Positions 2,532 to 22,452 of a DNA stretch of 28,940 nucleotides are shown one piece after another (position 1 is the stretch's first letter; every line of letters begins with the position of its first letter). Made by a program: the position numbers and the translations under genes. The DNA lies in the IMG/VR virus record IMGVR_UViG_3300031801_000012, positions 1 through 28,940 of that record. One strand, given 5' to 3'. This stretch comes from a virus. The notes below the pieces were generated by a model, which was not told the origin of the DNA, made no database searches, and saw only the letters and a program-made list of their open reading frames with translations.

Positions 2532-2820
2532 ATACTGGGAACGAAAACGAAAACTTTGGGAAGATCAAGTGGGGCAGGAAAAGCAGTATCCGATTTTTTC
2601 AAACCCGATTCGTCCATCTCATTACACAACAGGATCAATGGAGACTTGGGACGCTATTCATGGTCTGGGTTTAGGGTATCTGGCAGGCAATGTAGTAAAA
2701 TATCTCTGTAGGTATCCTCACAAGGGAGAGAAGAATGTGGATCTTCTCAAGGCCCGAGCCTATTTGGACAAACTAATTCAAGAAGAACTGGGATCTGATG
2801 GGTCTTCTGGACAGGATTAA
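2515..2820 (+). CDS. DUF3310-type (SaV-like) phage protein
   Basis: This 101-residue protein has the DUF3310 pattern: RPSHYTTGSMETWDAI, then LGYLAGNVVKYLCRY, then LLKARAYLDKLIQEE. The family is common in phage genomes and has sometimes been annotated as nucleotide-kinase related, but its function is not established. The start at 2515 is preferred over an in-frame ATG at 2476, because the extra residues read inside the nuclease gene and look unlike protein. Even so it overlaps the nuclease gene by 17 bases and the terminase by 23. The N-terminal helix (TEYWERKRKLWEDQ) is charged. Confidence 0.85.
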   Translation: MLTDTEYWERKRKLWEDQVGQEKQYPIFSNPIRPSHYTTGSMETWDAIHGLGLGYLAGNVVKYLCRYPHKGEKNVDLLKARAYLDKLIQEELGSDGSSGQD

Positions 2821-4306
2821 AGATAGTGATAGTGTCTTCCACGGTCTCAGGCCCAAGTGGACTCCTTACATTCCGCACGATCCCACACCCAAACAACTCG
2901 CGTTTTTAATGCTGCCTCACCGCGAAGCATTCTACGGGGGGGCTGCGGGGGGTGGAAAATCTGACGCCCTGCTGATGGGTGCTCTACAATATGTAGACGT
3001 TCCCGGTTACGCTGCGATGATCTTTCGTAAGACTCTCTCGGATCTGAAACAACCCGGAGCTTTGTTGGATCGTGCTCACAGTTGGCTGATGAACACACCC
3101 GCCCACTGGAATGCGGGAGAACACACCTACTACTTCCCCACCTATGACGAGAAGGGAAACCCAGCAGAACCCGCTAAGATGACTTTCGGGTACATTGGAC
3201 AAACCGATGCTTACACTCGCTATCAGGGTATTGAGCTACAGTATTGTGCATTCGATGAATTAACACAGCACTGGGAAGATGACTACCTTTACCTTTTCTC
3301 TCGTATTCGACGAAATCGCTGCCCAACTCACGGCAGTGACGCAGACCCCGATTGTTCCGATTGTGATCGACGTTCATCCATCCCAATCCGAATGCGGGCA
3401 GCATCGAATCCCGGTGGTGTGGGACATAGCTGGGTTCAAGAGCGATTTGATATTGGGCCAGCCCCAGATCCAGACAATCCCGGTAAGGAGAGATTCGTTG
3501 GAAGGCATCCAGATCGTCCTTACATTCCCGCTTACATTCGAGACAACCCTTACCTCGATCAAGAAGAGTATTACATTGGACTCGACCAACTCGACCCAGT
3601 CACGAGAGAGCAGCTAAAGGCAGGTGACTGGGGGATCAGTGCTGACTCCCGATTCAGGAAAGCATGGGCGCAGTATTACAGTGTCAGGGGGATGCATTAC
3701 TGTCTTGGCAAGGGCGGGAAGGGGGCTGTTCACACGAAGGATGAACTTCAACGAGTCTTCTGCACCGTTGATCCCGCAGCTTCCGCGAGGGAAGGCCCCG
3801 GAGACAAAGATATCTGGCGTAAGCAGCCCAGTTACACCGTCATCTCCACATGGGGTCTGACGCAGGACTACAACCTGCTCTGGCTGGACATGCGCAGGTT
3901 CCGTAAAGAGATCCCCGACATTCTTGCAGAAGTCCGCAAGGTCTACAGGACATGGCAACCGCAGTATTTCATTGTCGAAGCTACGGGTCTGGGTAAGGGG
4001 GCCTACCAGATGCTTGCCAAGTGTGGGCTTCCTGTAAAAGCAGTCCACCCGCATTACGATAAACTCGTCCGAGCAACTGATGCCATGAACCGGATGGAGC
4101 AGGGGCGTATCTGGCTCCCTGAAACCGCAGGCTGGCTGCATGACTGTGAGAAGGAACTGTTTACATGGACAGCCCACCCGCATCAGAGTGACGACATCAT
4201 CGACACCCTTTCCTATGCAGCCTTGGACATCTCGTGGGAAGCTTCCCATGATGAGAGGTCATTTGCGGAAATCTACACTGACGATCTCCCCGGCATCATC
4301 ATGTAG
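2798..4306 (+). CDS. terL: Terminase large subunit
   Basis: This 502-residue protein has the full large-terminase architecture. The ATPase domain has Walker A GGAAGGGKS (residues 47-55), Walker B YCAFDE (149-154, with D153 and E154) and the coupling motif ASNPGG (202-207). The C-terminal RNase H-like nuclease has its acidic residues in TVDPA, IVEATG and SDDIIDTLSYA. It pumps DNA into the procapsid through the portal and cuts it. An insertion between Walker B and the coupling motif carries C175, H178, C186 and C189 (CxxH...CxxC), a possible zinc knuckle. No small subunit was identified next to it. Its last 48 bases overlap a convergent minus-strand gene. Confidence 0.97.
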   Translation: MGLLDRIKDSDSVFHGLRPKWTPYIPHDPTPKQLAFLMLPHREAFYGGAAGGGKSDALLMGALQYVDVPGYAAMIFRKTLSDLKQPGALLDRAHSWLMNTPAHWNAGEHTYYFPTYDEKGNPAEPAKMTFGYIGQTDAYTRYQGIELQYCAFDELTQHWEDDYLYLFSRIRRNRCPTHGSDADPDCSDCDRRSSIPIRMRAASNPGGVGHSWVQERFDIGPAPDPDNPGKERFVGRHPDRPYIPAYIRDNPYLDQEEYYIGLDQLDPVTREQLKAGDWGISADSRFRKAWAQYYSVRGMHYCLGKGGKGAVHTKDELQRVFCTVDPAASAREGPGDKDIWRKQPSYTVISTWGLTQDYNLLWLDMRRFRKEIPDILAEVRKVYRTWQPQYFIVEATGLGKGAYQMLAKCGLPVKAVHPHYDKLVRATDAMNRMEQGRIWLPETAGWLHDCEKELFTWTAHPHQSDDIIDTLSYAALDISWEASHDERSFAEIYTDDLPGIIM

Positions 4307-4555: not shown

Positions 4556-5441
4556 AACTGACATACCTCGATACTGACGAGGTTTTGTTAGTTACAAAAA
4601 ACAGGCGAAGCCAGTATGCGCCAATGGGCTTGGGGGGCGCACCCCGTTCCACATGCCAGCCCTCGAAGCCTTCCTTGTACTCTTCCTTGTATGTCGGAAG
4701 GCAAACGTGGGTTTGCTCGTCGTGGTAAGTACCGTTCTTTCCTAAACGCAATCTTACCAGATCGAGTTTCCACGACTCATGGATATGACCACTGATGACA
4801 ATCTGGGGGTCTGGAAGATACACAGCCCTCCGATTTGTCTGGATGACCCCTTTCGTTACCGGCCCACCTCCACCTGCTCCATGCGAATAATGCAAAATCA
4901 GGGATCGACCCACTGACCGACTTACACCATTCCTTTCCTCTTTCGCATGGAATCGGACAAAACCGGAATAGCCTCCGTTGTAGACTGTCTCCCCCGTCTT
5001 GTATTTCATCGTTGCGCAAAAACGCTCGATGAGGTCGGTCTCGTGCCTCTTCAGAATCCCAGCCTCGTGATTTCCCCGCCCGATCAGAATTAGATTCTCT
5101 GCGTAAGGCGCAAAGAAATCTGAGGCAGTGGAAACCAGAGCATCCAAGTATTCGGGGCAGTTGTGCTCTTCCCGCACATCCCCTTTCATCGATCTGGGAT
5201 CGTATTTTCCCTGCATGGCGCAGAACCAGTCGCCTGCGTCAATGATACCGGCTCCCCGCTTTTTCGCCTCGTCGAGATGCTCCTTTTGAAGCTCCCAATT
5301 GCTCTTGGGATTATCCCAGTGTCGATCAGAGGTAAGAAGAAACCACTGCTCCCACTGAGAGAGTCTGCCTTTTGGCGTGCAGTTTACATTGAATACATTT
5401 TTACTTAGTTTTTTGACATTGTAATTAAGTTTGCTTCCCAA
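4533..5441 (-). CDS. Calcineurin-like metallophosphoesterase
   Basis: This 302-residue protein shows the ordered metal-binding motifs of the metallophosphoesterase superfamily: DRH (D39, H41), GDW (D71), GRGNHE (N124, H125), a histidine pair near HYSHG (H184, H187) and SGHIHE (H219, H221). All expected dinuclear-metal ligands are present, so it is likely an active phosphoesterase. The substrate is not predictable; DNA, nucleotides or phosphoproteins are all possible. It lacks the extra domains of Mre11/SbcD. The start is a TTG at 5441 behind AAGGGG; the first internal ATG would remove the D-x-H motif. It lies 19 bases after the large virion-like gene on the same strand. Confidence 0.92.
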   Translation of the reverse strand: MGSKLNYNVKKLSKNVFNVNCTPKGRLSQWEQWFLLTSDRHWDNPKSNWELQKEHLDEAKKRGAGIIDAGDWFCAMQGKYDPRSMKGDVREEHNCPEYLDALVSTASDFFAPYAENLILIGRGNHEAGILKRHETDLIERFCATMKYKTGETVYNGGYSGFVRFHAKEERNGVSRSVGRSLILHYSHGAGGGGPVTKGVIQTNRRAVYLPDPQIVISGHIHESWKLDLVRLRLGKNGTYHDEQTHVCLPTYKEEYKEGFEGWHVERGAPPKPIGAYWLRLFFVTNKTSSVSRYVSYEITRAK

Positions 5442-5460
5442 CTTCAGCCCCTTTAGTTGA

Positions 5461-6828
5461 TTAATCGGACGCTAACGAGTCTGCAATGAATGGGCTTGCG
5501 TCGGAGGGTAGTTGCATTCTAAAGCCTTTACGGAACATCGTCTGAAATTTTCCAGCATCATCATTTGCAACGGTGAAAGTTGCTCGGTCGTTGAATAGGG
5601 TCTTGGCTGACCCGTCGATGACGTTGGCATGAACCCCGCCATGATAGAACACGGGGCCAAACTGCATGTGGTCTATAAGTACCGTTTTTGCATTTGTAAG
5701 AGCAGGAGTTATTGTGATTGATAGTTTAAAGTCATCAGGAATCACTGTGGGCATGTTAATGAAGAAGAATTCAACGCCATAGGCTGTTTGAGCAGCAAGG
5801 GCGGTAGCATCCATTGAAATTTTCTCACTGGAACTGGCGGTGTACCCCGTCCCAGTAAATTTAATTTCCAAAACCCCTGCTGAAATTGTTGACTGCCCCT
5901 TCACATAACAAGCAAGACAATATCGACGATACTGGTGCAAGCTATTTGAACTAATTGCTTGGGTTAACTCAAAAGTAGCACCGGCGGGGGTTCCTACAAG
6001 GCCAAGGGCATACGTTCCTTTGTACGCATCACTACTTCGAGTTGGTGGATGGTCGCTGTCTACCCATGTACCCGGCGCGGATGTACTACTCCAAGTTTCA
6101 AAGTCAAGATTCGAGAGACCATAGTTCGACCCGTACCTTGTCAACGGGTACATGCTCGGGCCAGCCCCCGACCCAACATCGCCAGAAGTGTATCCTGCTG
6201 ATCCAGTATTTCCTCCCCACTCAAAAAGCTCATTTCCTTCACTGACATTAGAGGCGTAATCAGAATCTTTTACGCAGGTGATTCTCATTGTGTCAGCAGT
6301 AGGTGCCAGTTGACTGTCCACTCCGTCTTGATATTTGTGAGCAAGGCCCCCGTTGATAGCAGCTTGGTATCCGTCAAGAACTTTTCCCGTAGCAACTGAA
6401 AACGCATCAGAGTTGGTCAGCACATAAGAGGGGCTTCCAAGAGTTACTGTGCTGGGCAGGATATCTCGCTGACCATCTGCGTGCTCTTTCATATCTCGGT
6501 AGAGTTCGAGGTATGTTCCCTCCCACCCCGAGGTAGTGACGAAGTTGTCTAACACTATTGTTCTGTCGCTCAACAGCCTGCTTATCTTGCCCACAAGCTG
6601 GGCAATCCAACTGACTACTTGGTACTTGTATGAATCAAACACAATGGTGTTGTCTGAGTAGGTTTCGATGGGGTAGCTGTCATTGGTAATCTTGTCGAGC
6701 AATTCAGTATTAAGCTCAACTCTGTCTGCTTCCAAGGCGGTGACGATGGCCTCGAAATCATTTATTCGTTCGACATATTCCCCGATAACTTCAAACAGGG
6801 TGGTATACTGAGCAGATGAAAGACCCAT
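5461..6828 (-). CDS. Probable virion protein with a carbohydrate-binding-like domain
   Basis: This 455-residue protein starts at ATG 6828 behind AGGAAC. Residues 1 to about 130 are mostly helical (such as INDFEAIVTALEADRVELN). Residues from about 240 to 400 look like a CBM4/9-type beta-sandwich: LDFETWSS..PGTWV, then YALGLVG, then a strand-rich segment ending in TVLIDHMQFGPV. Such domains occur in phage tail and receptor-binding proteins, where they bind glycans, so a virion or host-recognition role is likely. The C-terminal 50 residues are separate from this domain. It is the first gene of the minus-strand cassette, so it is expressed apart from the main virion operon. Binding specificity is unknown. 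Confidence 0.75.
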   Translation of the reverse strand: MGLSSAQYTTLFEVIGEYVERINDFEAIVTALEADRVELNTELLDKITNDSYPIETYSDNTIVFDSYKYQVVSWIAQLVGKISRLLSDRTIVLDNFVTTSGWEGTYLELYRDMKEHADGQRDILPSTVTLGSPSYVLTNSDAFSVATGKVLDGYQAAINGGLAHKYQDGVDSQLAPTADTMRITCVKDSDYASNVSEGNELFEWGGNTGSAGYTSGDVGSGAGPSMYPLTRYGSNYGLSNLDFETWSSTSAPGTWVDSDHPPTRSSDAYKGTYALGLVGTPAGATFELTQAISSNSLHQYRRYCLACYVKGQSTISAGVLEIKFTGTGYTASSSEKISMDATALAAQTAYGVEFFFINMPTVIPDDFKLSITITPALTNAKTVLIDHMQFGPVFYHGGVHANVIDGSAKTLFNDRATFTVANDDAGKFQTMFRKGFRMQLPSDASPFIADSLASD

Positions 6829-7078: not shown

Positions 7079-8376
7079 TGCGATTTAAGAAACCCATTGT
7101 AACCACCGGGGTCTATTCTATTCCGGGCGATACTTCCCGAAAGGTTGAAGTAACTGAGAATCGACTAAGTCACTGGGCTTCACAATTCGAGAAGATGAAA
7201 AAGGCGGGAATTTCTGTTCCTGCTCCTTGGAACCACAGCAAAGAAGCCTTTCCCATGTCCATAGGTGATGATGGGACACTTCCTCGAAGTGATATCAATG
7301 CAGGTTGGTGGGACAGGGTCTGGGTAGAAAATAATACTCTCTGGGGGGAAGTTGATGTTCCCTCAAACGAGGATGCAGTTAAGATTGGTACTAACGTAAA
7401 AGAATCTTCCATCTACGTTCGTCCTTCTTTTGTTGACGGGGCAGGCAATGAATGGAAAGATTCCTTAATGCACATTGCCTTGGTAACTCATCCCGTTGAG
7501 AACGGACAAGGAAATTTTGAGCCAGTTGAACAAGGGCTGGCCTTGGCAATGTCACAATTAACGGAGCCACTATCAATGGCATCACCACAACCAGCAGAAG
7601 AACAACTCAACGCAACTGACAACGTAGGCCCCGGAGAGTCCAAGGATTCGCAGCAGCAGGGCCTCCAAGGAATGCTGGAACTTCTTAGATCCCTACAAAT
7701 CGATTTACCTGAAGATACAAATGAAGTAAATTTTATGGAGAGACTGATGGTCGCTCTTCGACAGAAGAAAGCTTCAGAACAACCCGATGATCAATCTGTA
7801 ACTACACCACCGGAGGGAGCAAAAGAACAACCTGCTCCAGTTGCTATGTCACAAGAAAAGAAAAGCGAAGTTCAAGAAGAGGAAGTCACCCTTTCTCACG
7901 AAGAGCAGGTAGGGGAAGAGGTTGTTATGTCTCACCCGAAATTTAAGGCTGCAAGTCAGACGATCACTTTTCTTCTGAACCATATTGGTCAGCAGGAGAA
8001 GAACGGACTGGCTGACCGTCGTAACAATCTGGTTGCGACCGGGAAAGTTACCGAAGCTTACGCCTCAGAGCATCTTGATCCCTCGATTGGATCTTTCCAG
8101 ATGTCCTTTGGCGACAATGGTAGTCCCGAAGTTTGTGCAGCATCACAAATCATGGATGCCTTGGAGTCAGCCCCGTCCCTTACAACGGGTGTTCTTGGCA
8201 GGAGTGCTCATGACAATGAGTCCTTGCAGAAGATCGCTCTGGCGATGTCCCAGTCGGGCATTGAGGGTCTTCCGGTTGGCTTTGGCTATCAGGAAGAGGA
8301 ACTGGAGTCTGAGGATGGGCGAACTGCTGACGAGATCGCCATCGACTTCTTAAAAAACACGGGCCACGACGCATAG
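7078..8376 (+). CDS. Capsid maturation protease fused to scaffold-like region
   Basis: This 432-residue protein precedes the decoration and capsid genes, where a head protease/scaffold is expected. Residues 1 to about 150 look like a Mu gpI-type or related prohead protease: WNHSKEA (H53), VKESSIYVRPSF (S110/S111) and MHIALVTHPV (H132) are the likely catalytic histidine, serine and conserved segment. Residues from about 165 to 285 are Gln/Glu-rich, low complexity and probably a coil (EEQLN, QQQGLQGMLELL, KKSEVQEEEV), typical of a scaffold. The C-terminus is helical and acidic. It would line the procapsid and then be cleaved. Which serine is catalytic cannot be decided by eye. Confidence 0.82.
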   Translation: MRFKKPIVTTGVYSIPGDTSRKVEVTENRLSHWASQFEKMKKAGISVPAPWNHSKEAFPMSIGDDGTLPRSDINAGWWDRVWVENNTLWGEVDVPSNEDAVKIGTNVKESSIYVRPSFVDGAGNEWKDSLMHIALVTHPVENGQGNFEPVEQGLALAMSQLTEPLSMASPQPAEEQLNATDNVGPGESKDSQQQGLQGMLELLRSLQIDLPEDTNEVNFMERLMVALRQKKASEQPDDQSVTTPPEGAKEQPAPVAMSQEKKSEVQEEEVTLSHEEQVGEEVVMSHPKFKAASQTITFLLNHIGQQEKNGLADRRNNLVATGKVTEAYASEHLDPSIGSFQMSFGDNGSPEVCAASQIMDALESAPSLTTGVLGRSAHDNESLQKIALAMSQSGIEGLPVGFGYQEEELESEDGRTADEIAIDFLKNTGHDA

Positions 8377-16101: not shown

Positions 16102-16659
16102 ATGGCACTCAGTATCAATGCAATTTCAGGCCCGTACTCAGGTCAATGGTCTGCGGAGTTTCTCGGAGTAACCGAGGATGGTTACGAATTGGAGCACACT
16201 TTCTACAGTGAGCCAGTCCGTGGTGACAACATGGGCGACTCCATTCAGGACGAGGTTCATCGTGGGGCAGATGTCTATGTGAACTTTACTGCTATGGAGT
16301 TTGGGGCTATGGCTGTAGTAGACAATGGTGGTGCGCCTTCCAGTTCTCCTTTCTGGCCTACAGGTAATTCCGGGTTCAATGCTGTTGGGGCAAATGCAAC
16401 TGTTGGCGTCATGGGCGACTCCCGTGGGGAGTATTCAGATGTCCTCCTTCTAACTGCTCTTGCAGGTACTCCATCAGCAGCGAATCCAGCAACCATCACA
16501 TTTCCTCAAGCGATCTTGGCAGCAAATTTCCCCATTAGAACTTTGTATGCCAGTAGGGTTCGTAGGATTCCCATGCGAATGATCTGTTATCCGTTCGCTG
16601 GGGGTTCTGGGTCTGCCAATCAATATACAGCAGCAATTTACTACTACACCACTACCTAA
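16102..16659 (+). CDS. Probable major tail tube protein
   Basis: This 185-residue beta-rich protein starts three bases after the previous stop behind AAGGAG. The N-terminus (ISGPYSGQWSAEFLGVTEDG) leads to alternating strands, an expected loop, and a segment DEVHRGADVYVNFTAMEFGA that resembles the inner strands of tube proteins. The end (YASRVRRIPMRMICYPFAGG) is again strand-rich. Length and position ahead of the tape-measure-like gene fit the tail tube, which would polymerise around the tape measure. No sheath gene accompanies it. A different beta-rich virion protein cannot be excluded. Confidence 0.68.
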   Translation: MALSINAISGPYSGQWSAEFLGVTEDGYELEHTFYSEPVRGDNMGDSIQDEVHRGADVYVNFTAMEFGAMAVVDNGGAPSSSPFWPTGNSGFNAVGANATVGVMGDSRGEYSDVLLLTALAGTPSAANPATITFPQAILAANFPIRTLYASRVRRIPMRMICYPFAGGSGSANQYTAAIYYYTTT

Positions 16660-16910
16660 TGAATTTCTATAGCGGTAAGGTCAAGAAGACTGACAGGATT
16701 GCACTTCTCTTTGCCAAAGGCCCAAGAAATCAAGATGAGATAAACCTTCTGACAGAACACATCCAGAAGGAGTCAAAACTTATTAGCGATTCTTGGTCAG
16801 ATAAAGAGAGAGAAGTTCGTGCTAAGAGAGCAGGCTCTCCCCGCAGAGAGTCTTTCTCAGTTGTATCGACTACCAGCCCGTTCCCCCAACTGAGCGAAGA
16901 CGATGGCTGA
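16659..16910 (+). CDS. Small basic protein between tail tube and tape measure
   Basis: This 83-residue protein starts in a TAATG overlap and its end overlaps the tape-measure-like gene by eight bases. The centre is a charged helix (INLLTEHIQKESKLISD, DKEREVRAKRAG), and the tail is Ser/Pro-rich. In many phages this slot encodes tail-assembly chaperones, but no slippery frameshift site is seen here; the better chaperone candidate is at 20709. I therefore make no functional call. Confidence 0.65.
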   Translation: MNFYSGKVKKTDRIALLFAKGPRNQDEINLLTEHIQKESKLISDSWSDKEREVRAKRAGSPRRESFSVVSTTSPFPQLSEDDG

Positions 16911-18137: not shown

Positions 18138-20690
18138 ATGCCACAGCCAAGAGACATTTCTAACGACAACCAGTTAAATCTGGGGTTGGTAACCTACAAC
18201 GGTTTTATCTTCCCCCCAGCCATTAACACATCGGTATCCATGACCCCGGTCTATGATCGTTCTGATCGAGGACTCATGTATGTGAAGTACGGGATTCGTA
18301 TTGAGTTCGTCATTCATTCTCGGGATGTCAGTTCAGTGAATGCCCCTGCTGCTGGTGCTATCGGTATTTTTGGAGACAACTGGGCGAATGAGCTTAGGAA
18401 TACCCAAGACGTTAATGGAGAGCAGGGAACCTATCAAAACTCATCCCATCTCGGACAGGTCGTGCAGGGAGGGATTGATCACCAGCTACATTACATTCGC
18501 AGAATACTAAACCAGCCGGGAAGACGATTGACCATTGCAGGTATTGGTCTTGGCCCGGACATGGATATCAACCACCCCAATCTGAATGTCTCTGATGTTC
18601 CTATGGCTTCTCGTGGTCTTTATGACGTTGCTTGGGGGCCAAAACCTCGCGCCCTTCGATGGGAGCCTATTGGTGGCAGTAGTGCTGCCCGTGTTGTGTG
18701 GGAGTGTGAAGTAGGCTTGGTTGAATGCGAGGATATCAATTCTGCTCACAAAGAAAGGAAACCCATCACGTTCAGCACTAATCCTGACAGCGGTGCTGGT
18801 TTCCTTCCTGATGAAGTCCTTCAACTTGTCTACAACGAGTCATGGGATATTGACGTCAATGGAATGACTACCAAGCACTATGACGCAATTCTCCAAGTTC
18901 GAGGATATATTGACGCAGGATTCCTGCAAGCGGTTTTCAATAGTGATCCTACAGCGGGACAGGACGTGGATGTTAATCCCTTTGGAACACCGGGGGCACA
19001 GGGGGAAAGTGCGGACGCCTTTCGTTGGTTCTTTGAACCAGCCCTGCGTCATGGGTATTTGAGAACCAGAAAATACGCAATAAATGACGACAAGACAGAG
19101 CTTCGCATTAACATCACTGATACGGAGGTGGCAAGTGATTGGCCCTTCCCACCCGGAGTTTCAGATATGTCTGCTGAGTACAGCATCTCGTCAGCTTTGA
19201 TGGGTGGGAATGTTCCGGGCGGTGGAGGCGGAGGTTTCATAACATGGGACTGCAAATTGTCGGGCAGCATAACCATGACAAAAAGTTGGCATCCTTACTG
19301 GAGAAGGGTGTACCCCTATTACATCTTTCTACTTCTTATCCGAAGTCGCTATCGTCCCGCACTTCGGGCGGGGGACGAGCCAGAGGGTGTTGTCCGTCCA
19401 GCGAATCCAGCCCAGTTTGCTCCCGGTGGAGATGATGTAGAACCCTTGAACGCTACAGGCCAACCATTCCAAAATCTCCCTCTATCCTTCAACTTGACCG
19501 AAGATATCTTCGGAAGAGAGTTCAGTTTCAACTTTAATTGGATGGCTCTAGTCAATCCCCCTTCTGAAGCCCCCAGATACTTACGTTATGGCTACCCCCC
19601 AAACATCTTTGCAGAAAATCAACACAAGGTAGATCCAGATGATTTCCTGAAGCGGGGGCGTCTGGTGTCATGGGATTGGGATCTCTGGCTTCGCAGCATG
19701 ATCAAAGCTGGTGGGGCTTCTGATTTCTACTGGCAGGACTGGAGCATTGGAGACCCGATAGCAGATGAGCAAGTGGGTGACGTATCCGGTGTTGTATTCA
19801 CTACAGAAATTCCAACCCACTTCTTGAAGAGAACGAAAGTTGCTGGACGGGTTGCCACCATTCTTTCAAACTGGACAATAAAAGCTGCTCCTATGAGTAT
19901 CCACGGTTCTGATCATCTTCGCTTTGAAGGAGATGGTCGTATGGAGCCTTGTCAGGATAATTTGGACTTCTGGTATCAGAACGCAATACCCACCCCACGT
20001 CAGGAACCCTTCATCTCCCCCGGTGAGAATCCAATCAGTGCTGTCTTCTACGATCATGGGGAGGACAACACCAACAAGATTATCGATATACAGTCTGAGA
20101 TGGAACTAGTTGAGCACAACAGTACCGTTGCTGTCTCTCCTTTGCACAACCAGTTCAACAGCAGCCCACTGATGGGCTATGTGGATGGGATGAGTACGGA
20201 AACCGATTATGGAAGCATAATTCCCAGCAGTGGTCTTCAGTCAGGTGAAACTTCTATTGCTGGGGTAGACCCCTCCATAGGCGACACCAACATGACTTAT
20301 GATCGGGTTGAGATAAAGTACGAGGGAACAAGTGACCGGGCCACAAAGAACATTGCTCTTGCCCCTCCCAAGTACCAGCTTCACGTTATGGGAAAAGCAA
20401 CAACGATGGGCCAGCCTTTGAACCCAAGTCGTTGTTATCAATACGGGGAAGCTCTCGCAGTTAAGAGTGGTACTCATCCGACCAGACACAGCGTCCGACA
20501 GGTGACTCATGGAACCGTTGAGATGTGGGTTACCAAATGGGATTTATGGTACGATTTGGTTGGAACACCTAACGGTGTTGCGCCCAAACCTGCGGGTGAG
20601 ACTGCTTATGGGCATGTAGGAAAAACAGGAAAAGCCCCCTATTTTGCTGAGAACCAAACGATACATAGTGCTACAAGAAGACTGGGTTAA
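18138..20690 (+). CDS. Large tail protein of unknown fold
   Basis: At 850 residues this is the second largest product. It has no membrane spans or catalytic motif that I can see. It is rich in Trp, Pro, Gly and Tyr. An early strand-rich part (MYVKYGIRIEFVIHSRDVS) recurs in style near residue 367 (WDCKLSGSITMTKSWHPYW). A Gly-run loop (PGGGGGGF) lies near residue 357. Position between the tape-measure-like gene and the frameshift pair fits a distal tail or baseplate-like protein. I recognise no named family. It begins behind AAGGAC. Confidence 0.7.
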   Translation: MPQPRDISNDNQLNLGLVTYNGFIFPPAINTSVSMTPVYDRSDRGLMYVKYGIRIEFVIHSRDVSSVNAPAAGAIGIFGDNWANELRNTQDVNGEQGTYQNSSHLGQVVQGGIDHQLHYIRRILNQPGRRLTIAGIGLGPDMDINHPNLNVSDVPMASRGLYDVAWGPKPRALRWEPIGGSSAARVVWECEVGLVECEDINSAHKERKPITFSTNPDSGAGFLPDEVLQLVYNESWDIDVNGMTTKHYDAILQVRGYIDAGFLQAVFNSDPTAGQDVDVNPFGTPGAQGESADAFRWFFEPALRHGYLRTRKYAINDDKTELRINITDTEVASDWPFPPGVSDMSAEYSISSALMGGNVPGGGGGGFITWDCKLSGSITMTKSWHPYWRRVYPYYIFLLLIRSRYRPALRAGDEPEGVVRPANPAQFAPGGDDVEPLNATGQPFQNLPLSFNLTEDIFGREFSFNFNWMALVNPPSEAPRYLRYGYPPNIFAENQHKVDPDDFLKRGRLVSWDWDLWLRSMIKAGGASDFYWQDWSIGDPIADEQVGDVSGVVFTTEIPTHFLKRTKVAGRVATILSNWTIKAAPMSIHGSDHLRFEGDGRMEPCQDNLDFWYQNAIPTPRQEPFISPGENPISAVFYDHGEDNTNKIIDIQSEMELVEHNSTVAVSPLHNQFNSSPLMGYVDGMSTETDYGSIIPSSGLQSGETSIAGVDPSIGDTNMTYDRVEIKYEGTSDRATKNIALAPPKYQLHVMGKATTMGQPLNPSRCYQYGEALAVKSGTHPTRHSVRQVTHGTVEMWVTKWDLWYDLVGTPNGVAPKPAGETAYGHVGKTGKAPYFAENQTIHSATRRLG

Positions 20691-20708
20691 AGCTCGAAAG
20701 GAAACTTC

Positions 20709-21026
20709 ATGCCCTTACTAACTATCACTACCCCGGAAGTAGAAACCCGCATTTGTCTTGAGGATGAGGAAGGAAACGCACTCTTTGAAGACGAGATTGT
20801 CTTTATTGACCATCTTCTGTCTTCTGCCCAAGAAGGCTTGGAGTTGGCCTCAGACGATGCAATTTATGTGTGGCTTCCCTTGTTCACTGAAAAGATGAAC
20901 ACACGATATGATCTTGAGTTGTCAGAGACAAACGCTTTCTACATAGCGAGAGAAGCGTCCCGCCTGATGTGGCTCATTAAAAAAAAATACGACAGCACGT
21001 TGAAGTTGCAGGAGTCTACGGAATAA
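20709..21026 (+). CDS. Zero-frame tail-assembly-chaperone-like protein
   Basis: This 105-residue protein begins behind AAAGGA. Its helical segments (FEDEIVFIDHLLSSAQEGLE, TNAFYIAREASRLMWLIKK) are followed by a short tail of 12 residues (YDSTLKLQESTE) after the lysine codons. The last part overlaps a -1 frame that encodes a longer, conserved-looking domain. The arrangement (short product ending soon after a slippery heptamer, longer product by -1 shift) is the lambda G/GT pattern, in which the chaperone pair loads the tape measure. Unlike in lambda, it lies after the tape-measure-like gene. The chaperone call comes from arrangement, not from sequence family. Confidence 0.7.
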   Translation: MPLLTITTPEVETRICLEDEEGNALFEDEIVFIDHLLSSAQEGLELASDDAIYVWLPLFTEKMNTRYDLELSETNAFYIAREASRLMWLIKKKYDSTLKLQESTE

Positions 21027-21238
21027 ATCCCTTTGAACTTACCACATCCCAACTTTATTACTTGCACGAGGGCATACCCGTAGTCACAGCTAAGAGAGAG
21101 TTGCACATACGAGCATCACGATCTCCCTTAACGGAAGAAAGAGTACACTCACTTGCTTACTTGCTGACAGATGATGTGGACGAGGCCCAAAGACAGGTTG
21201 CAAAATTCATTCTTGAACGCGCAAGAAAAAACAGATGA
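20709..21238 (+). CDS. -1 frameshift fusion product, 176 residues (join 20709-20987, 20987-21238)
   Basis: After codon 93 a shift into the -1 frame adds 83 residues: IRQHVEVAGVYGINPFELTT, then SQLYYLHEGIPVVTAKRELH, a helical charged part and the end AKFILERARKNR. The added part has the composition of a real protein. Its frame has no ATG, GTG or TTG between the in-frame stop (TAA, 20978-20980) and a TTG at 21062, which would cut off the GINPFELT part. The frame ends in an ATGA overlap (21235-21238) with the portal gene, which also supports translation. By analogy with GT proteins it would bind the tape measure. A sequencing error in the A-run could also join the frames, and I cannot exclude it. 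Confidence 0.7.
20981..20987 (+). other. Slippery heptamer A AAA AAA for -1 frameshift
   Basis: The run of nine A (20979-20987) contains a heptamer whose zero-frame reading is A|AAA|AAA. This is the exact register needed for simultaneous -1 slippage of two lysine tRNAs. No strong stem or pseudoknot was found downstream by eye, though A-run sites in bacteria can work without one. The stop in the zero frame is 37 bases downstream (21024-21026). Confidence 0.65.
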
Positions 21239-22452
21239 TTAAGAACAAGAAGACAAAACCAGAAGAGCTTCTGGGAAAACCAATTACCGCAGACTATATG
21301 CCTAGCGGTTATTCCGGTCTGTTTCTCTTTGCCAGAAATCGTCCTCCCTTCAGCATGACCGTGATTCAGGAGATGCTGGCAGACCCCCGAGTCATCTTTG
21401 GTCTCTGGTTGATCAAAGGCCCTATCCTTGCAAATTCCAGATTTTATATTGAGTGCGAGGACGCGAACGTCAAGAAGTTCCTTGTCAAGAATGTCACCCG
21501 TTTCTGGCGAGGTTCCGCAGCCCGAGCACTCAAGGCCATCGAGTGGGGTTTCTCTGGAAGCGAGACAATGTACCGTGTTCAGGACGGGCAGATCCACTTC
21601 GACACCCTGCGGGATCTTCACTCTCAGGATGTCCGGTGTGTCACGCAGGATGGTCAGCTTGTTGGGTTTGTGTGTAGAAATGTTCCAGACCCCAACACCA
21701 AGCAGGGACGACACAAGATTTTCCTTGGAGTACCCAAGGGCTTCTGGCACTCTCACTGGAGAACACATCACCCGTGGTACGGTCTCTCTCGCCTCTACGC
21801 TGCTCACATTCCTTGGTGGGAGATGTGGAGCGACGGGGGTTACCGCGACATCAGGAGACTGTGGTTCCACAAGAATGCCTTCGAGGGCGGGATCATGTAC
21901 CACCCTCCGGGCATTACCAGAACCAAAGAAGGTCTCGCCATCTCCAACAAGGATCTCGCCAGAGAGATGATCGAGAAGAAGCGAACTGGTGGTACACTCA
22001 CCCTCCCCAACACGATGGGTGGGGAAGGAATCCGAAGCTGGGAATACATGGCCCCCTCACCCAATGCGGTTCCCGCAGGACTCATGGAGTACGGAGCCAG
22101 CCTCAAAGAAGAGCTTTTTGAGGGCATGGGAATCCCCCCGGAAATCTTCGAGTCAGGGGGTGGAGGATTCGGTTCAGCAACAGGGAGGCAGGTTCCCGAG
22201 GAAGCTTTCTTCGCTGTCCTTCAGGAGATGGTTGGCTGGCTGATTCAGGATGCTGATGATCAAATCTTTCGACACCTAGTGCAAATGAACTTCGGAAATG
22301 TTCCTTACGAGATTATTCCCTTCGGTCTGACCTACAAGGCAGAGGAACGGGAAAACCAGATGAGGGAAGACACTCGAAATGCGGAAAGTGCTCAGGCGGG
22401 TATCATGGCTGGTCAGGGGGATGTGCCTCCAGAAGCTATGCTTGAGCAATAA
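21235..22452 (+). CDS. Portal protein (Mu gp29-like, DUF935 family)
   Basis: This 405-residue protein has the portal-family order of segments: ITADYMPSGYSG, LADPRVIFGLWLIKGPILAN, AIEWGFSGSETMYRV, PWYGLSRLYAAHIPWWEMW and the late segment EELFEGMGIPPEIFESGG. The portal ring sits at one head vertex, is the docking site of terminase and is the DNA exit. The ATG lies inside an ATGA overlap with the -1 frame of the chaperone-like gene. The location, after the tail genes and 17 kb from the terminase, is unusual, because portals normally sit next to terminase and protease. The 405-residue length is at the short end for portals. Confidence 0.87.
   Translation: MIKNKKTKPEELLGKPITADYMPSGYSGLFLFARNRPPFSMTVIQEMLADPRVIFGLWLIKGPILANSRFYIECEDANVKKFLVKNVTRFWRGSAARALKAIEWGFSGSETMYRVQDGQIHFDTLRDLHSQDVRCVTQDGQLVGFVCRNVPDPNTKQGRHKIFLGVPKGFWHSHWRTHHPWYGLSRLYAAHIPWWEMWSDGGYRDIRRLWFHKNAFEGGIMYHPPGITRTKEGLAISNKDLAREMIEKKRTGGTLTLPNTMGGEGIRSWEYMAPSPNAVPAGLMEYGASLKEELFEGMGIPPEIFESGGGGFGSATGRQVPEEAFFAVLQEMVGWLIQDADDQIFRHLVQMNFGNVPYEIIPFGLTYKAEERENQMREDTRNAESAQAGIMAGQGDVPPEAMLEQ

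Follow-up and report, generated by a model that had tools for sequence, protein, structure and literature searches.

A conserved -1 frameshift gene directly upstream of the portal gene in a family of viruses, probably encoding a displaced tail-assembly-chaperone pair

Two overlapping frames upstream of the portal gene

The stretch analysed here is the virus record IMGVR_UViG_3300031801_000012, 28,940 nucleotides (nt) long and referred to below as the window, and this work concerns a small gene located directly 5' of its portal gene, which this uncultured phage family appears to express in two forms through a -1 frameshift. The features of the locus are collected in Table 1. Within the open reading frame (ORF) 20709-21026, the codons around the putative slip site read ...ATT AAA AAA AAA TAC GAC..., in the X XXY YYZ register, and the -1 frame stays open between 20981 and 21238, its first ATG, GTG or TTG codon being the TTG at 21062. 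An earlier sequence-only reading of this DNA had given the coordinates of these elements, the 83-codon -1 frame and the ATGA overlap with the portal gene, and all of them were found to be correct when the sequence was re-read. One other plus-strand heptamer in the window passes the two-ORF test, GGGTTTG at 21664, but in that case the -1 frame belongs to the portal gene, which has its own start far upstream; besides 20981-20987, no plus-strand heptamer in the window joins two ORFs of which the second lacks an upstream start of its own.

Table 1. Features of the frameshift gene and its neighbours (aa, amino acids; positions refer to the window).
Feature	Position	Strand	Basis or remark
Probable major tail protein	16102..16659	+	A homologue is matched weakly by PHROGs (Ig-domain family 8.9e-7, major tail protein 0.07); position
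83-aa gene in the usual chaperone slot	16659..16910	+	Only in close relatives
Probable tape-measure protein, 407 aa	16903..18126	+	Weak PHROG 58 match (E 0.035); position; length varies in relatives
Conserved 850-aa tail-region protein (g18138)	18138..20690	+	Between tape measure and frameshift gene in every relative
Shine-Dalgarno-like AAGGA	20698..20702	+	6 nt 5' of the ATG of the short ORF; read from the sequence
0-frame ORF, short product, 105 aa	20709..21026	+	Presumed major product
Frameshift fusion product, 176 aa	20709..21238	+	Relatives whose start is assigned have homologous fusions of 169-207 aa
Run of nine A's	20979..20987	+	Sole nine-A run and longest homopolymer in the window
Slippery heptamer A AAA AAA, -1 register	20981..20987	+	Last seven A's of the run
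-1 frame extension (IRQHVEVAGVYGINPFEL...), 83 sense codons + TGA	20987..21238	+	Purifying selection in relatives
0-frame stop TAA	21024..21026	+	12 codons past the heptamer
ATGA, fusion stop overlapping portal start	21235..21238	+	Sequence
Portal protein, Mu gp29 type	21235..22452	+	Pfam Portal_Mu, 31.5 bits (cut-off 23.9); PHROG 113

Conservation of both frames in relatives

The fusion protein used as a query for relatives retrieved no match. The portal protein retrieved nine viral contigs (72-83% identity), all of which carry the same two-part gene just 5' of the portal gene, with nine A's in the same phase. A search with a portal alignment added 18 further viral contigs (43-58% identity), 18/18 of them with both parts, the -1 relation and an in-register heptamer, together with one contig of a gammaproteobacterial metagenome-assembled genome (L047, 37% identity). 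The relatives considered here are therefore 27 viral contigs with portal identities of 43-83% (22 different protein sequences, or 23 when the window is counted), and the loci amount to 29 including the window and L047. Both frames are conserved as protein among these relatives, as indicated by alignments and by the ratio of nonsynonymous to synonymous substitution rates (dN/dS). The short products align with 38-47% identity among relatives, and when 24 distinct sequences are aligned, the columns at which the shift occurs are the same throughout.

The heptamer at these columns is A AAA AAA in most relatives, G GGA AAC in L029-L031, A AAA AAC in L037 and L043, A AAT TTT in L034 and T TTT TTC in L035, while L033 has both A AAA AAA and A AAA AAC. 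This comparison, which the sequence-only reading had suggested as a check, gives a heptamer that varies and a register and alignment column that remain constant. In-register heptamers are present at 0.37% of codons in the other genes of these loci, and the product of the per-locus chances over the 23 distinct sequences (window included) is ~1e-24, a value that is overstated since the lineages are related; on this comparative evidence, a chance origin of the in-register heptamers is excluded. Judged from substitution patterns, the -1 frame is under purifying selection (dN/dS ~0.05-0.10, against ~0.9-1.3 for the same DNA read in the 0 frame, in close pairs). The proposal that the 20709 gene is fused to its -1 frame at the in-register A AAA AAA is thus strongly supported by the 27 viral relatives, with their conserved frames and changing heptamers.

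Homopolymers are prone to sequencing and assembly errors, and one continuous gene broken by such an error, or a decayed pseudogene, could produce a similar picture. L047 speaks for such an error: its homologous gene (~5436-5987) is one continuous frame of 183 codons in which the slip site has ten A's. Slippage by -1 would there yield the short form (ACA TGA), so that the arrangement is reversed. This continuous frame, known from a single assembled genome, may itself be an assembly error, and when 369 genomes from the class to which the host of L047 belongs were searched, only the genome of L047 and one false match to a ribosomal-protein region were retrieved. Against the error reading, the same two-frame layout is present in the 27 other viral contigs, from many metagenomes and with different heptamers, and both frames show purifying selection. 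An error or a pseudogene is therefore extremely improbable, and the layout shared by the relatives led us to reject it for the family of the window. The sequence-only reading had held that a relative with one continuous frame would refute its proposal; the distant L047 is the only such case (1/29 loci), and the remainder of the proposal is not overturned by it.

A second explanation is that the -1 part is a separate small gene starting at the TTG at 21062. A possible start codon is indeed present there, but the slip site itself marks the beginning of the conserved stretch IRxHxxVAxxYGINPFEL, 5' of this TTG, the first start codon after the slip site differs in place among relatives, and no Shine-Dalgarno-like sequence precedes the TTG. 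An independent start for the -1 part was rejected on these three grounds, and we consider it very improbable.

Mechanism of the shift

The comparative case makes -1 frameshifting in this gene near certain, and the fact that the heptamer changes while register and column hold argues for ribosomal -1 frameshifting rather than polymerase slippage alone. According to the proposed mechanism, ribosomes starting at 20709 would mostly stop at 21026 and produce the 105-aa protein, whereas a minority would slip by -1 on the A AAA AAA at 20981-20987 and read on to 21238, producing a 176-aa protein that shares its N-terminal part with the short form and adds a predicted helical C-terminal extension. The sequence, its conservation and the selection on it are shown; the slippage in the cell and its rate are inferred.

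Alternatively, the shift could occur at transcription, with RNA polymerase slipping on the nine-A run and mRNAs with one extra A being read straight through. Slippage of the bacterial polymerase is known to occur at nine consecutive A or T residues (PMC5009743). Exactly nine A's are found in 15/23 distinct sequences (the window and 14 relatives), in three codon phases, though seven or eight would suffice for a ribosomal shift in some of them; these nine-A slip sites are those of the window, L002-L006, L009, L010, L033, L036, L038-L041 and L044. In contrast, the members with G GGA AAC, A AAT TTT or T TTT TTC have a longest homopolymer of 3 to 6, and four more members have only eight A's, and all of them keep the -1 relation. 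Because the former sites contain no run longer than 6, tandem ribosomal slippage fits better than polymerase slippage and, unlike the latter, it accounts for all members. A purely transcriptional shift thus seems quite unlikely, although in members with nine A's the polymerase may contribute to the shift alongside the ribosome. Predicted structure 3' of the slip site is not strong in the clade of the window (z 0.94 to -1.38) and is strong in L040, L041, L044 and L031 (z -2.7 to -4.2).

Similar shift sites are known from other genes. As in the window family, a run of A's serves as the shift site in dnaX recoding, which is a ribosomal shift in E. coli and polymerase slippage on nine Ts in Thermus thermophilus. 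Recoding of dnaX yields the shorter product, whereas in the window family it yields the longer one, with the exception of L047, where a -1 slip would give the short form. Homologous genes can use either mechanism (PMC5009743; Larsen et al. 2000 as listed in PMC3711429). The sites G_GGA_AAC and A_AAA_AAC have been reported for the g-t genes of the haloarchaeal viruses HCTV-1 and -2, and the g-t shift sites of HCTV-1, -2 and -5 are of kinds also used in the window family (PMC5009743); these are, however, different viruses, and the window family uses mainly A AAA AAA and also A AAT TTT and T TTT TTC. With its different slippery sites, which all occupy one homologous position, the family forms a natural series on which ribosomal and polymerase slippage could be tested against each other. 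Its second product would escape automatic annotation.

Gene order and candidate function

In every locus long enough, the order of genes is adaptor, neck, terminator-like, major tail, tape measure, g18138, frameshift gene and portal; the capsid, decoration protein, terminase and head-tail adaptor are backed by profiles. The frameshift gene lies directly 5' of the portal gene in 29/29 loci, with stop and start overlapping or abutting in most, and its position after the tape measure and immediately before the portal, which the sequence-only reading had remarked on as unusual, is real and conserved in the relatives. In lambda, HK97, P2, Mu and TP901-1 the chaperone genes are located between the major tail and tape measure genes, whereas in the window family the frameshift gene always comes after the tape measure and g18138. 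The usual chaperone slot is empty in the viral contigs other than the closest relatives, the gap between major tail and tape measure being 4-78 nt in those outside the closest clade; in L047 this gap is 245 nt. The 83-aa gene that fills the slot in the window's clade (16659-16910) has no heptamer-linked -1 extension. Since the slot holds this gene only in the closest relatives, the frameshift gene is the sole conserved candidate for a chaperone pair.

The gene layout read from the sequence places the short and the -1-extended products in one gene of the tail operon, and the two are probably a tail-assembly-chaperone pair. This is the best interpretation because the gene is the sole conserved frameshifted one in the tail operon, the usual slot is mostly empty, the sizes fit, and the extension carries a weak GpE motif. 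The chaperone identity advanced by the sequence-only reading is retained in that sense, but it is not proven, as no family is reached at cut-off and no fold match was found; for this reason we describe the products as working like a chaperone pair and do not place them in a named family. By analogy with lambda G/GT and P2 E/E+E', the short form would coat the tape-measure protein and the fused form would recruit the tail-tube protein. The gene would have left the slot that separates the major tail gene from the tape measure and now follows both the tape measure and the tail gene next to it; at this observed position it could be translationally coupled to the portal gene.

Among known systems, lambda G/GT resembles the window pair in its place within the tail gene block and in a second ORF whose stop overlaps the start of the next gene. 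It differs in that the lambda pair is flanked by V (major tail) and H (tape measure), whereas that of the window follows the tape measure and the 850-aa gene and precedes the portal, and in that the window family has no match to the Phage_TAC_2 or Phage_tail_T models. The P2 pair E/E+E' (GpE, PF06528) is similar in size (91 and 142 aa, compared with 105 and 176 aa here), and a related ADVA..[YF]...P motif is present in the extension (P2 MADVAVIFHWPPSEL; L038 ADVAYAYNLNPFDL), with weak hidden Markov model and profile matches. In contrast, every relative is below the Pfam GpE cut-off, P2 shifts on TTTTTTG, and the P2 pair is located 5' of the tape measure.

The search of both parts for chaperone profiles that the sequence-only reading had called for gave this weak GpE motif and no family at cut-off. 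The fusion and 19 relatives had only chance-level matches in PHROGs, Pfam and NCBIfam, and the lambda T, lambda G and Mu gp41 models had no match in this family. Pfam GpE gave one match in 19 virus records (contig L037, 8242-8301, E 0.0033, 13.3 bits, compared with a cut-off of 23 bits); it is the sole GpE match in this 38-kb contig and falls in the -1 frame of the frameshift gene. A profile of the extension scored 18.35 against a GpE profile built from 11 phage sequences, a score reached by 0/300 column shuffles, and the GpE profile aligns the ADVA..[YF]...P motif to the same place as the L037 match. When 768 ORFs of lambda, HK97, P2, Mu, TP901-1 and Riggi were ranked against the extension profile, P2 E' came 4th, which by itself is no proof of chaperone identity. 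The short product and the extension were folded separately; the former is predicted as a beta-hairpin with helices (predicted local distance difference test, pLDDT, 87) and the latter as helical (pLDDT 73). The best PDB sequence match, a stretch of the XPR1 family, is weak and was judged to be due to chance.

Several observations weigh against a chaperone pair. The position is unlike that of known chaperones and is tied to the portal in every relative, and in the close clade the usual slot is occupied by another small gene. No chaperone family was reached at cut-off in Pfam, PHROGs or NCBIfam (PF06223, PF10109 and PF06894, with PF06528 below it), and no credible fold match was obtained for either half (Foldseek and VIA-align for the short product, VIA-align for the extension). 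In the ORF ranking, lambda Bet outscores P2 E', and most chaperones of lambda, HK97, Mu and TP901-1 rank low.

Some of these observations would suit a different function, in which the pair is a portal or head-tail junction assembly factor, such as a portal chaperone or scaffold in two ratio-controlled forms, rather than a tape-measure chaperone. The invariable place before the portal gene, the large conserved gene separating the frameshift gene from the tape measure, and the fact that neither sequence nor fold searches reached a known chaperone at cut-off are all in its favour. Nevertheless, we know of no portal chaperone made by -1 frameshifting, this function would leave the tail operon of most relatives without a chaperone pair, and the extension, although only weakly GpE-like, matches GpE better than shuffled controls do. 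We therefore regard a portal-linked factor as possible but rather improbable; the fuller version, in which the factor is made in step with the portal and polymerase slippage possibly adds in the nine-A members, is equally tentative. It would represent a new use of ratio-setting recoding in phage assembly.

Tailed phages consistently carry the chaperone pair just 5' of the tape measure, and both genes are located and annotated with the help of this order. If the products described here are a chaperone pair, a whole lineage breaks this rule, its sole conserved frameshifted tail-operon gene being located after the tape measure and coupled to the portal, which would show that chaperone and tape measure can be made apart from each other.

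No library or phage record that was searched contains the protein family. By tblastn in 50,697 phage records, no match was obtained for the fusion, for the 850-aa protein or for the capsid protein, and the 850-aa protein (18138-20690) had no profile match. As to the surrounding genes, the terminase (2798-4306) and the portal (21235-22452) are ~17 kb apart, with head and tail genes between them, and the portal follows the tail genes in all relatives. L037 contains, shortly after the portal, another pair of overlapping ORFs with the in-register heptamers TTTAAAA and AAAAAAC (7604-7613), which was not seen in other relatives. Finally, the portal ORFs of L029 (6004-8625), L031 (5986-8520) and L047 (5965-8988) reach ~850-1000 codons and are apparently fused to a further C-terminal part.
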